Assembly: GCA_016794545.1 (NCBI GenBank)
Contig: JAEUJX010000553.1
Span: 1-49,863, forward strand
From: Myxococcales bacterium
GTDB lineage: Bacteria; Myxococcota_A; Polyangia; Haliangiales; Haliangiaceae
Reading direction: 5' to 3'
DNA length: 49,863 nucleotides
The notes under the pieces are model-generated. The model did not search any database. It saw only the letters and a list, made by a program, of their open reading frames with translations, and had not been told where the DNA came from. This document shows, in pieces, positions 43,762 to 48,731 of the stretch. The stretch's first letter is position 1, and each line of letters opens with the position of its first letter. The translations under genes were made by a program, and so were the position numbers.

Positions 43762-45011
43762 GGCAGCCTCCGGAACCGCGTGTGCGACAGGAGGAGGTCG
43801 AGCCCGAGAAGGATCGCCGCGAGCACCGCGAACGGCAGGAACAGCTGCTTGTCGGGGATCCGCTCGATCGTCGTGCGCTTGATCTTGTCGAGCTTGTTGC
43901 GCACCGCCTGGAAGCCCTTGTCGAACGTCTCGTAGTCGGTCGCGCGGAAGAACTCGCCGCCGGTGAGGCTCGCGATGCTGCGCAGTGTCGCCGGGTTCAC
44001 GCTCATGCCGCCGAAGAAGTCGTTCTCCTCGCGGCCGACGAGCACCGTGTACACCTTCACGTTCATCTTCGCGGCCGCGCGCGCCGCCTCGTCGGGCTCG
44101 AACCGCGTCACCCAGTTCGAGTCGCCGTCGGAGAGCAAGATGACGACCTTGTGGCGCTTGCCGTTGTCGACCTCGCAGTACCCTTCCGTCGAGCACGAGA
44201 AGCCGCTCGCGCACGTGTTGAGCGCGCCCGGCGTGCCGTCACAGACGCCGTCGCTGCGGCGCAGCTGCGCGAGCGCCAGCGCGAGGCCGTCGCCGATCGC
44301 GGTGCCGAGCTCGGGCACGTCGCCGATCGTCAGGTCGCTCACGATCTGCTCGAGCATCTTCATGTCGCCGGTCAACGGCGCCTGCAGCATCGCCTGCTGG
44401 CCGAAGATCACGAGGCCAACGCGGTCGTGCTTCGTGCGCCGCAGGAAGCGCCGCACCACGCGCTGGGCGGCATCCATGCGATCGCGCGGCATGTCGGTCT
44501 CCTCCATCGACTTCGACATGTCGAACACGATCATGATGTCGACGGAGTCCTCCTCGTGCTTGATCGTTCGGAACGTCTCCGGCCGCATCAGCGCGACGCA
44601 CAGCGCGCCGATCGCGAGCACGCGGAACACCCCCGGCAGATCGGAGAACCACGCGAGCAGGCCGCGCTTCCGCACCAGCGCGGTCTGCGAGAACCCGAGC
44701 GCGGCGCTGCGCCGCCGGTGCAGGTGGAACGAGATGAACCCGACGAGCCCCGCGCCGGCGAGCAGATGGATCGCGTTCCACGACCGCCACACGATCTTCT
44801 CGCCGGCCCGCAGCTGGTCGACGTACCGGTACATCCCGTACGCGAGCGCGCCGCCGATCGCCGCGACGAGCACCCACGGGATCGAAGCCTGGATCGCGAT
44901 CGCCGCACGGCGCCGCCGCTTCGCCGGATCGATCATCACCCACACCACCATCCCGATGATCAGGGCGCCGAGCGCGAGCGCGCCGATCGTGATGCCCGTC
45001 CGGACCTTCAC
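43758..45011 (-). CDS. vWA-domain membrane protein, BatA-like, with four-cysteine insert
   Basis: A 417-residue protein with helices near 7-26, 42-62, 79-97 and 125-142, a vWA domain with metal site DMSKS (164-168), Thr237 and LSDGDSN (D295), and a C-terminal helix near 393-409. Between the third and fourth strands an insert (about 254-285) carries C257, C267, C273 and C279 with EGF-like spacing, not known to me in BatA. The start GTG 45011 overlaps the BatD-like stop (GTGA). It likely works with the BatB-like and TPR proteins in the envelope. Confidence 0.88.
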   Translation of the reverse strand: MKVRTGITIGALALGALIIGMVVWVMIDPAKRRRRAAIAIQASIPWVLVAAIGGALAYGMYRYVDQLRAGEKIVWRSWNAIHLLAGAGLVGFISFHLHRRRSAALGFSQTALVRKRGLLAWFSDLPGVFRVLAIGALCVALMRPETFRTIKHEEDSVDIMIVFDMSKSMEETDMPRDRMDAAQRVVRRFLRRTKHDRVGLVIFGQQAMLQAPLTGDMKMLEQIVSDLTIGDVPELGTAIGDGLALALAQLRRSDGVCDGTPGALNTCASGFSCSTEGYCEVDNGKRHKVVILLSDGDSNWVTRFEPDEAARAAAKMNVKVYTVLVGREENDFFGGMSVNPATLRSIASLTGGEFFRATDYETFDKGFQAVRNKLDKIKRTTIERIPDKQLFLPFAVLAAILLGLDLLLSHTRFRRLP

Positions 45012-46381
45012 GCCGCCTCCCGCCGCGCCGCCTGCTGCGCCGCCTGGCGCAGCTGCGTCGTCGTGACGATGAGACCGCGCGCGTCGTCGAGCACTCCGTT
45101 CGCCTGCGCCGCCGTCGCGCGCTGCGCCGCATACTTCACGAGGTCGCACTGCCCGAGCCACACCTCGACCAGCTCGCGCTCGTCAGCGGGCGCCACCTTC
45201 GAGAGCGCCTTCACCAGCTCGACCGACGTCAGGTCGCGCGACGCCACCTCGTACCGCGCCCCGACGTAGTCGCGGATCACGTCGACCATCTCGGTGTAGC
45301 CCTTCTTGCGGTCGACCTCGCGATCGAGCACGCCCGACTCCTTGATCTTGTGGAGCGCCGCGAGCGCCTTCTCCGCGGTCATGTCGATCTTGCGCTTCGG
45401 CATCGCCATGATGCCGCCGGTCAGCTTCACCGTCTTCTTCTTGAACGACAGCGTCCGCGCGTACGCCCAGCCACCGAGCAACAGGAGCACCGCCCCGATC
45501 GCGCCGCCGATCCACAGCCACGTCCAGTCGCGCGTGACGAGCGTGGTCGGCGGATGCGCCGGCCGCAGCGCCTTCGGATCGTCGACGACGTCGCCGAGCA
45601 CGCCGTCGACGCGGAGGCGCACCGCGTTGGTCTGCACCTGCCCGACCTTGCCCTGGAACGTGTACGTGATGACGATGCCGGGGATCTGGAGCTCGCCCAG
45701 GTCCCACGCGGTGACATCGATCTGCCACTCGCGGATCGTCTTGCTGTCCGCGCGCAGCGTGTCGTGGCTGTCCTTCTTCTTGATCTCGAACTGAGGTCCG
45801 AGCTCGAACGGCTCGCGCAGGTTCGCCACTACCCCCTGATCCACCACCGCCGTCACGAACAGCGTGAACCGGCCGCCGAGCCGGATCGCCGTCGGGCTCG
45901 CCGACGCGTCGACCTCCGGCGCATTGACGTCCGTCGGCAGCTGGATGATCCGCGGCCCGGAGCCCGAGCCCGAGCCCGACGCCGAACCCGAACCCGACGC
46001 CGAACCCGACGCCGAACCCGACGCCGAACCCGACGCCGAACCCGAACCCGAACCCGTTCCCGACGCCGAACCCGTTCCCGACGCCGACGCCGAACCCGAC
46101 GCCGAACCCGTGCCGGCCGCGGAGCCACTGCCGACCGCCGAGTCACTCCCCACCGCTGCGCCAGAGCCCGCACCCGGATCCGCGCCCTGTGCGTGCGCCG
46201 TCGCCGCCGCGAGCAGGACGACGAGCGCCGGGACGATGACGCCTCTCCCGCGAGCGCCGGACAAGGAAATGGGGGACGGGCCCCCGTTTCCGCGTGTCCC
46301 GCGAGCGCCGGACAAGGAAATGGGGGACGGGCCCGCGTTTCCGCGTGTCCTCCCGGACATCGTCGCGGAGCGTCGGGTCAT
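45008..46381 (-). CDS. BatD-like membrane protein with REP insertion and Ser/Gly linker
   Basis: A 457-residue protein. ATG 46381 overlaps the DUF58 stop (ATGA), fixing the start. Residues 12-28 and 29-45 are two copies of a 17-residue unit encoded by a palindromic repeat; the signal peptide core VIVPALVVLLAAATAHA follows. Residues 66-145 are an Ala/Ser/Gly repeat linker. About 145-265 form one immunoglobulin-like BatD domain (GVVANLREPFELGPQFEI), residues 288-307 a membrane helix, and the rest a cytoplasmic helical domain. BatD proteins act with BatA/BatB in an incompletely understood envelope-stress role. Confidence 0.82.
   Translation of the reverse strand: MTRRSATMSGRTRGNAGPSPISLSGARGTRGNGGPSPISLSGARGRGVIVPALVVLLAAATAHAQGADPGAGSGAAVGSDSAVGSGSAAGTGSASGSASASGTGSASGTGSGSGSASGSASGSASGSASGSGSASGSGSGSGPRIIQLPTDVNAPEVDASASPTAIRLGGRFTLFVTAVVDQGVVANLREPFELGPQFEIKKKDSHDTLRADSKTIREWQIDVTAWDLGELQIPGIVITYTFQGKVGQVQTNAVRLRVDGVLGDVVDDPKALRPAHPPTTLVTRDWTWLWIGGAIGAVLLLLGGWAYARTLSFKKKTVKLTGGIMAMPKRKIDMTAEKALAALHKIKESGVLDREVDRKKGYTEMVDVIRDYVGARYEVASRDLTSVELVKALSKVAPADERELVEVWLGQCDLVKYAAQRATAAQANGVLDDARGLIVTTTQLRQAAQQAARREAA
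45957..46120. repeat. Short tandem repeats coding for the Ser/Gly/Ala linker
   Basis: A hexamer/dodecamer-type repeat (units such as CGAACCCGACGC) runs through the linker part of the BatD-like gene. It codes for SGSASG-type sequence and lies just after the signal peptide. It is likely to vary in copy number. Confidence 0.85.
46247..46297. repeat. REP-like palindromic repeat, copy A
   Basis: A 51-bp unit directly repeated with copy B. Its centre is an inverted repeat with arms GGAAATGGGGG (46265-46275) and CCCCCGTTTCC (46281-46291) around loop ACGGG; outer arms GGACA (46259-46263) and TGTCC (46295-46299) extend it. This looks like the palindromes spread by REP-associated Y1 transposases. It is in frame (17 codons) with the BatD-like gene. 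Confidence 0.75.
46298..46348. repeat. REP-like palindromic repeat, copy B
   Basis: The second 51-bp copy, identical to copy A except for one C-to-G change that weakens the stem. The two abut head to tail, so together they add 34 codons to the BatD-like gene ahead of the signal-peptide core. Confidence 0.75.
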
Positions 46382-47265
46382 CCGTGCGCCATCCTCTTGG
46401 CGCGGGCGCGGAAGAACGCGATCAGCGCGTCGACGTACGGCTCGTTGGTGAACACCTTGACGACGTCGACGTTGAGGCGCCGCAGCGCCTGCTCGCGGAT
46501 CATCGCCTGCGACTGCGCGCGCTTCGCGAAGTCGCGGGCGACGCGGCTCGTGGTGTCGACCTCGACGAGCTGGCCGGTCTCGAGGTCCTCGAGGAGGAGG
46601 AGCCCGACCTTCGGCAGCACCTGCTCCATCGGGTCGGAGACGACGACCGGGACGAGCTCGTGGCGCTGGCGCGCGATCTTCATCGGCTGCTCCCAGCCCT
46701 CGCTGAGGAAGTCGGAGACCAGGAACAGCACGCTCCGGCGGCGCGCGACCTTGGCGAAGAAGTCGAGGCCCTTCGCGAGGTCGGTGGCGCGCGATTGCGG
46801 CTTGAACGCGAGGATCTCGCCGATCACGCGGAGGACGTGGCGGCGGCCCTTCTTCGGTGGCACGTAGCGCTCGACCTTGTCGGTGACGATGTAGAGGCCG
46901 ACGCGGTCGTTGTTCTTGATCGCCGAGAACGCGACGACCGCGGCGAGCTCGGCGGCGAGCTCGCGCTTCACCGAGCCCTGCGAGCCGAAGTACTCGCTCG
47001 CGCTCATGTCGATCATGAGGTTGACGGTGCGGTCGCGCTCCTCGATGAACTGCTTCACGTGCGGCGCGTTCATGCGCGCGGTGATGTTCCAGTCGATCGC
47101 GCGGACGTCGTCTCCCGGGTAGTACGGGCGGACGTCCGAGAAGATCAGGCCGCGGCCCTTGAACACCGAGTGGTACTGGCCGGCCAGCGTCTCGTCGACG
47201 AGGCGGCGCGAGGCGATCTCGATCTTCTTCGCCTTCTTGAACAGCTCGGCCGTGTTCAGGGCCAT
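46378..47265 (-). CDS. DUF58 family protein
   Basis: A 295-residue cytoplasmic protein with the DUF58 signature FSDVRPYYPGDDVRAIDW (43-60) and a vWA-like site DMSAS (86-90). DUF58 proteins are almost always next to MoxR ATPases and vWA proteins and are thought to act in their assembly. The start ATG 47265 comes two bases after the moxR stop. Its stop overlaps the BatD-like start (ATGA), so it anchors the operon. Confidence 0.92.
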   Translation of the reverse strand: MALNTAELFKKAKKIEIASRRLVDETLAGQYHSVFKGRGLIFSDVRPYYPGDDVRAIDWNITARMNAPHVKQFIEERDRTVNLMIDMSASEYFGSQGSVKRELAAELAAVVAFSAIKNNDRVGLYIVTDKVERYVPPKKGRRHVLRVIGEILAFKPQSRATDLAKGLDFFAKVARRRSVLFLVSDFLSEGWEQPMKIARQRHELVPVVVSDPMEQVLPKVGLLLLEDLETGQLVEVDTTSRVARDFAKRAQSQAMIREQALRRLNVDVVKVFTNEPYVDALIAFFRARAKRMAHG

Positions 47266-47267
47266 CG

Positions 47268-48323
<1,056 letters not shown>

Positions 48324-48422
48324 GGACCCCCCTGAGGGTGTCACAAAGAATGGCGAGATGCCCGTCTCCACTCGGGGGCAACCCCCAGCGGGGTGCCGGT
48401 ATTCCGGGTTATGGTGTGGCCC
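48324..48422. promoter_or_regulatory. Divergent promoter region between moxR and the DUF1844 gene
   Basis: This 99-bp gap must carry the start sites of both gene sets. It holds an inverted repeat, GGGGG (48374-48378) and CCCCC (48382-48386), three bases apart. No clear -10 or -35 is recognised. Confidence 0.35.
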
Positions 48423-48731
48423 ATGGCGGAGCAGCCGGTCGCACCCGCGCCCGTGGATTTCTCGACTCACGTGCTATCGCTGGCTTCCACGGCGCTCATC
48501 GCGCTTGGAAAGATGCCAGCTCCGGACGGGGCTACCCAGCCGGTCGATCTCGAGACCGCGCATCATCTGATCGATGTGCTCGCGATGCTCGAGACCAAGA
48601 CCAGGGGCAATCTCGACGAGGCGGAGGGCAAGCTCCTCGCGAGCCTGATCTACGACCTGCGCGTCGGGTACGTCGACGCCCAGAGGGCGCAGGGAGCGAG
48701 TCGTTCGCCGAGCTCGCGAGGCGACAAGTAA
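48423..48731 (+). CDS. DUF1844 family protein
   Basis: A 102-residue protein with the DUF1844 pattern: VDFSTHVLSLASTALIALG, then VDLETAHHLIDVLAML and EGKLLASLIYDLRVGYV. Its function is unknown; it is common in myxobacteria, planctomycetes and relatives. ATG 48423 is chosen over GTG/ATG codons just upstream because conserved sequence follows. The HtrA-like gene starts three bases after its stop, so they form an operon. Confidence 0.88.
   Translation: MAEQPVAPAPVDFSTHVLSLASTALIALGKMPAPDGATQPVDLETAHHLIDVLAMLETKTRGNLDEAEGKLLASLIYDLRVGYVDAQRAQGASRSPSSRGDK

Follow-up and report, generated by a model that had tools for sequence, protein, structure and literature searches.

A species-specific REP-like palindrome, duplicated in tandem and in frame, at the start of a batD-position gene in a Myxococcales bacterium

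The window, a 49,863-nucleotide stretch of DNA from a Myxococcales bacterium (contig JAEUJX010000553.1 of assembly GCA_016794545.1), carries a gene for an exported protein in which two palindromes sit between the start codon and the signal-peptide core. This arrangement raises the questions of where the palindromes came from and whether they are translated as part of the protein. The gene is accompanied by genes encoding a MoxR-type ATPase, a DUF58 protein, and two VWA proteins (BatA/BatB-like). Because its product matched no Pfam family at E 0.001, BatD included, and nothing meaningful in NCBIfam, the name BatD rests on operon position, and we refer to the gene as the batD-position gene. Its most likely start codon, an ATG, overlaps the TGA stop codon of the upstream DUF58 gene, forming ATGA. 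The features are collected in Table 1. The encoded protein also contains a long Gly/Ser/Ala-rich low-complexity linker (window 45950-46120), and the contigs of two congeners, G004 and G006, stop inside this linker.

Table 1. Coordinates in the window of the duplicated palindrome and the features around it
Feature	Position	Strand	Basis or description
batD-position gene	45008..46381	-	ORF; exported protein with Gly/Ser-rich linker and trans-membrane segment; homologues behind DUF58 in congeners
Most likely start codon, ATG	46379..46381	-	ATGA/GTGA in 11/11 readable junctions (this genome and ten congeners)
Candidate alternative in-frame start, TTG, inside copy 1	46262..46264	-	Minus-strand reading; would give MSGARGRGVIVPALVVLLAAATAHA
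Signal-peptide hydrophobic core and cleavage region, VIVPALVVLLAAATAHAQG	46184..46240	-	Translation; position as in ordinary signal peptides of congeners
REP-like palindrome, copy 1 (nearest signal-peptide core)	46257..46299	+	43 bp, CCGGACA...GTGTCC; stem and ACGGG loop
REP-like palindrome, copy 2	46308..46350	+	One base differs from copy 1
51-bp tandem duplication	46246..46350	.	Palindrome and 8-bp spacer CGCGAGCG; 2.1 copies
Upstream DUF58 gene (VWA-like)	46378..47265	-	Pfam DUF58, E 5e-79
MoxR-type AAA ATPase gene	47268..48470	-	Pfam AAA_3, E 9e-66

The tandem repeat was reported by Tandem Repeats Finder with a period of 51 and 98% matches. Each 51-bp unit contains the 43-bp palindrome CCGGACAAGGAAATGGGGGACGGGCCCCCGTTTCCGCGTGTCC, whose inner arms, GGAAATGGGGG (46265-46275) and CCCCCGTTTCC (46281-46291), and outer arms, GGACA (46259-46263) and TGTCC (46295-46299), pair with each other, respectively. 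The second hairpin (46316-46342) differs from the first by a single base change of C to G. These results confirmed a preliminary description of the locus, which had noted two abutting 51-bp copies with one mismatch and had placed the arms at the same positions. The palindrome is a short hairpin in the general sense of a REP, with 90.5% of cells pairing compared to 25-58% in slid versions, and the DNA hairpin alone departed only mildly from what its composition would give (z -1.7). The trinucleotide TCC flanks the duplication at both ends and may represent microhomology. It is highly improbable that the tandem pair is a draft-assembly artefact or a site of variable copy number in the population. 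In favour of such a reading, the assembly is a draft in 780 contigs and several family copies lie near contig ends. Against it stand the one-base difference between the copies, the normal continuation of the contig with intact genes on both sides, and the length of the pair, 105 bp, which is below common read lengths.

To describe the family in this genome, a covariance model, R1, was built from 14 copies. It gave 38 matches, which merged into 25 places on 11 contigs. Copy 1, itself one of the 14 training sequences, matched at 46256-46302 with 54.9 bits (E 2e-9), and copy 2, which lay outside the training set, matched at 46307-46353 with 41 bits (E 5.8e-6). A 27-letter hairpin pattern with up to three mismatches, which copies 1 and 2 matched with zero and one mismatch, respectively, matched this genome 15 times on the forward strand and 15 times on the reverse, whereas the reversed control pattern matched neither strand. 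A direct DNA search yielded 18 matches in the genome, and weaker copies were found at C605 and C157. The palindrome thus exists in many dispersed copies, as REPs in the general sense do, and absence of the unit elsewhere in the genome, which the preliminary description had named as a refutation, does not hold.

In our own codon scoring, which was trained on six genes of the window and is not a curated annotation, the coding signal was low at the copies of most sites, falling there and often changing strand across them (C230, C471, C274, C738, C605, C157, C608, C777, and others). Most copies therefore lie between genes, in keeping with the earlier remark that REPs are normally intergenic. At C753 (L079:2425-2467, equal to G000:C753:8424-8466), a diverged copy of 44 bits lies in frame within the Ser/Gly-rich linker of a SnoaL-domain protein of 762 residues; the orthologues in G004 and G013 have the linker and lack the SPDKKPGPGPISVSG peptide. 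At C677 (L043:1616-1840), a copy directly follows a GST-like gene, whose end occurs twice together with the palindrome, 178 bp apart, so this gene reads through the first palindrome; the 178-bp repeat comes from reading the translated copies and was not reported by Tandem Repeats Finder. Tandem duplication together with flanks was also observed at C230 (periods 53 and 135) and C777 (periods 93 and 202), a habit of the family with which the 51-bp duplication at batD agrees. The copies read stop-free in all six frames. By our own estimate, many 45-bp palindromes in GC-rich DNA would lack stops by chance, and the copies belong to one family; this property was accordingly set aside as not special.

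Outside this genome, the palindrome was not detected. The R1 model gave 0 matches in 55 relatives. When 379 genomes from the phylum were searched with the hairpin pattern, this one alone contained it and the remaining 378 did not. Among the genomes compared, the family is therefore confined to this species. At the DUF58-batD junction, ATGA or GTGA is followed immediately by a normal signal peptide in 8 of the 10 readable congeners (G001, G003, G005, G006, G010, G011, G012, and G014), and this compact junction is likely the ancestral state. None of the readable congeners has the palindrome, which speaks against the 34 residues being an ancient part of the protein.

The other two readable congeners, G004 and G013, are the closest species, with batD identities of 76% and 64%, respectively. 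In G004 (L102, G004:C37, bases 78-264), an 86-bp segment of the batD signal peptide is duplicated in 2.2 copies; the ATGA frame runs into a stop codon, and the apparent new start of batD is a GTG adjoining the signal peptide, with GGAAGGAG upstream. In G013 (L013, G013:C12, about 1080-1290), approximately 200 bp in open frame separates DUF58 from the batD signal peptide. This insert is a different dispersed repeat with 41 matches in the G013 genome, and an ATG stands immediately before the signal peptide, after the repeat. Three species, including the present one, have thus lengthened the junction in three unrelated ways. Since the closest species, G004, is rearranged at that very junction, it does not provide an exact empty site.

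In the window, the minus-strand frame is free of stops across both copies and reads MTRRSATMSGR-TRGNAGPSPISLSGARG-TRGNGGPSPISLSGARG-RGVIVPALVVLLAAATAHAQG; an example of the peptide encoded if the copies are translated is GNAGPSPISLSGAR. The unit length of 51 is divisible by three and the palindrome has no stop codon, so both copies remain in the open ATGA frame, although an in-frame length by itself has a one-in-three chance. The preliminary account of 17 residues per copy, in frame and ahead of the signal-peptide core, was thus borne out by the translation. Its signal peptide after removal of both units, MTRRSATMSGRTRG-VIVPALVV, was slightly in error and should read MTRRSATMSGR-RGVIVPALVV. 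The base that differs between the copies changes an amino acid, so nothing indicates selection on the encoded peptide.

The main rival reading, possible though less likely, is that the copies are effectively extragenic, with batD starting at the TTG inside copy 1 and the copies serving as a structured leader that separates the two genes, DUF58 and batD. Such a start would yield an ordinary signal peptide (Table 1), but direct reading of the minus strand revealed no Shine-Dalgarno-like sequence just 5′ of this TTG, a strong hairpin precedes it, and the ATGA frame has no break. The weakness of TTG as a start codon also counts against its use here. The apparent GTG restart right before the signal peptide in G004 and the similarly placed ATG in G013 show the kind of relocation that this reading requires, and the caution in PMC3733652 that many N-terminal REPs may go untranslated also supports it. 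Considering the junction expansions and the relocation of the start in G004, and possibly in G013, we regard translation of the palindromes as likely and not as established. Accordingly, the earlier proposal that the gene absorbed a mobile palindrome in frame holds insofar as the palindrome is dispersed, lineage-specific, and in frame, and its translation from ATGA is rivalled by a shift of the start.

The predicted RNA folding across the region was stronger than that of shuffled sequences (z -2.5; 3 of 200 shuffles were as good), and the strong structure begins 39 nt behind the start. This strength would suit palindromes kept for a function, with mRNA hairpins that retard the first steps of translation, or that protect the operon transcript or attenuate it. 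We regard such a role as improbable, because the palindrome is species-specific and recent, most copies are intergenic, and the copies of the family showed no covariation pointing to a selected structure. Covariation was accordingly dropped as support for a selected structure.

A candidate enzyme for movement of the palindrome was sought among Y1 transposases. This genome has two Y1 (RAYT-like) genes, L051 on C709 and L052 on C350, as the preliminary description had suggested looking for. Both proteins are nearest to REP_Tyr_transpos, with scores under the NCBIfam cut-off. No palindrome copy was found on the contigs of either gene in this 96.6% complete genome, and the idea that this family is the REP flanking a RAYT gene of the same genome was rejected; a Y1 gene with the palindrome beside it may be missing from the assembly. 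The two Y1 genes share an upstream AAATATCTGCC stretch.

With a looser pattern, palindromes with the core GGGGAC-NG-NCCCC were found in eight genomes of other groups, six of which have Y1 genes. Related-core palindromes occur near 4 of 18 Y1 loci in those genomes, most closely at L150, where one lies 22 bp behind the Y1 frame, and at L151, where they lie on either side. As these genomes were picked for carrying the palindrome, the association between the core type and Y1 is a lead and not proof. Movement of the present family by a Y1/RAYT enzyme is plausible. Palindromes with a GGGGACAGACC-type core adjoin Y1 transposase genes in unrelated bacteria (L150, L151, L147, and L160).

Taken together, the most probable history, to which we assign a probability of roughly 0.6, is that one palindrome inserted, 51 bp duplicated in tandem, and translation continues from ATGA. 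The species-specific REP-like palindrome of about 43 bp would have inserted at the junction between DUF58 and the batD-position gene, and a 51-bp segment containing it would have duplicated. Ribosomes re-initiating at ATGA most likely translate both copies, since the frame started there stays open. The protein would gain 34 arginine-rich residues ahead of an intact signal-peptide core. The insert may be close to neutral, with the exported protein still made, perhaps in smaller amounts owing to the mRNA hairpins.

On this history, the locus would be a clean example of an apparently mobile palindrome that extends an export signal while the gene remains unbroken. The more useful point is that the unrelated junction expansions of three neighbouring species constitute a natural test of the ways in which start codons and signal peptides shift. 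A wider generalization is doubtful and is offered as speculation: an untagged, stop-free palindrome with no adjoining transposase might enter or survive in coding frame, as at the batD start and in the C753 linker, and the DUF58-batD junction might be a repeated landing and expansion site in neighbouring species.

A search of one open-licence literature library found no earlier report of REPs in this lineage, and no such family from it appears in the available part of PMC3733652. That 2013 report documents intragenic in-frame REPs, many of them N-terminal, so the preliminary description of an in-frame coding copy within an export signal as unusual was too strong. The present family resembles the GTAG and CGTC REP superfamilies treated there in being a dispersed hairpin palindrome that is often clustered, mostly intergenic, and sometimes in frame, often at the N-terminus; like the CGTC REPs, it has no flanking transposase. 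Unlike these superfamilies, it has no GTAG or CGTC end tag: no conserved tag was present at the ends of 15 copies, with GACG, CTAC, or CGTC scattered at a few. Because this tag is missing and neither Y1 gene is flanked, we call the family REP-like and not a proven REP.

Similarity to RAYT systems lies in the two Y1 genes resembling REP_Tyr_transpos and in the related-core palindromes beside Y1 genes elsewhere, whereas the sub-threshold scores and the absence of flanking palindromes set it apart. The Rickettsia palindromic elements (RPE), about 150 bp long with dozens of in-frame insertions in unrelated protein genes (PMC10969869), were known to insert in this manner before the 2013 REP report. 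The present palindrome shares with RPE the insertion in frame into protein genes, at C753 and, if translated from ATGA, at the batD site, but it is 43 bp long, shorter than RPE, and was found at two intragenic sites. The locus is thus a clear local instance of an insertion type known from other bacteria.
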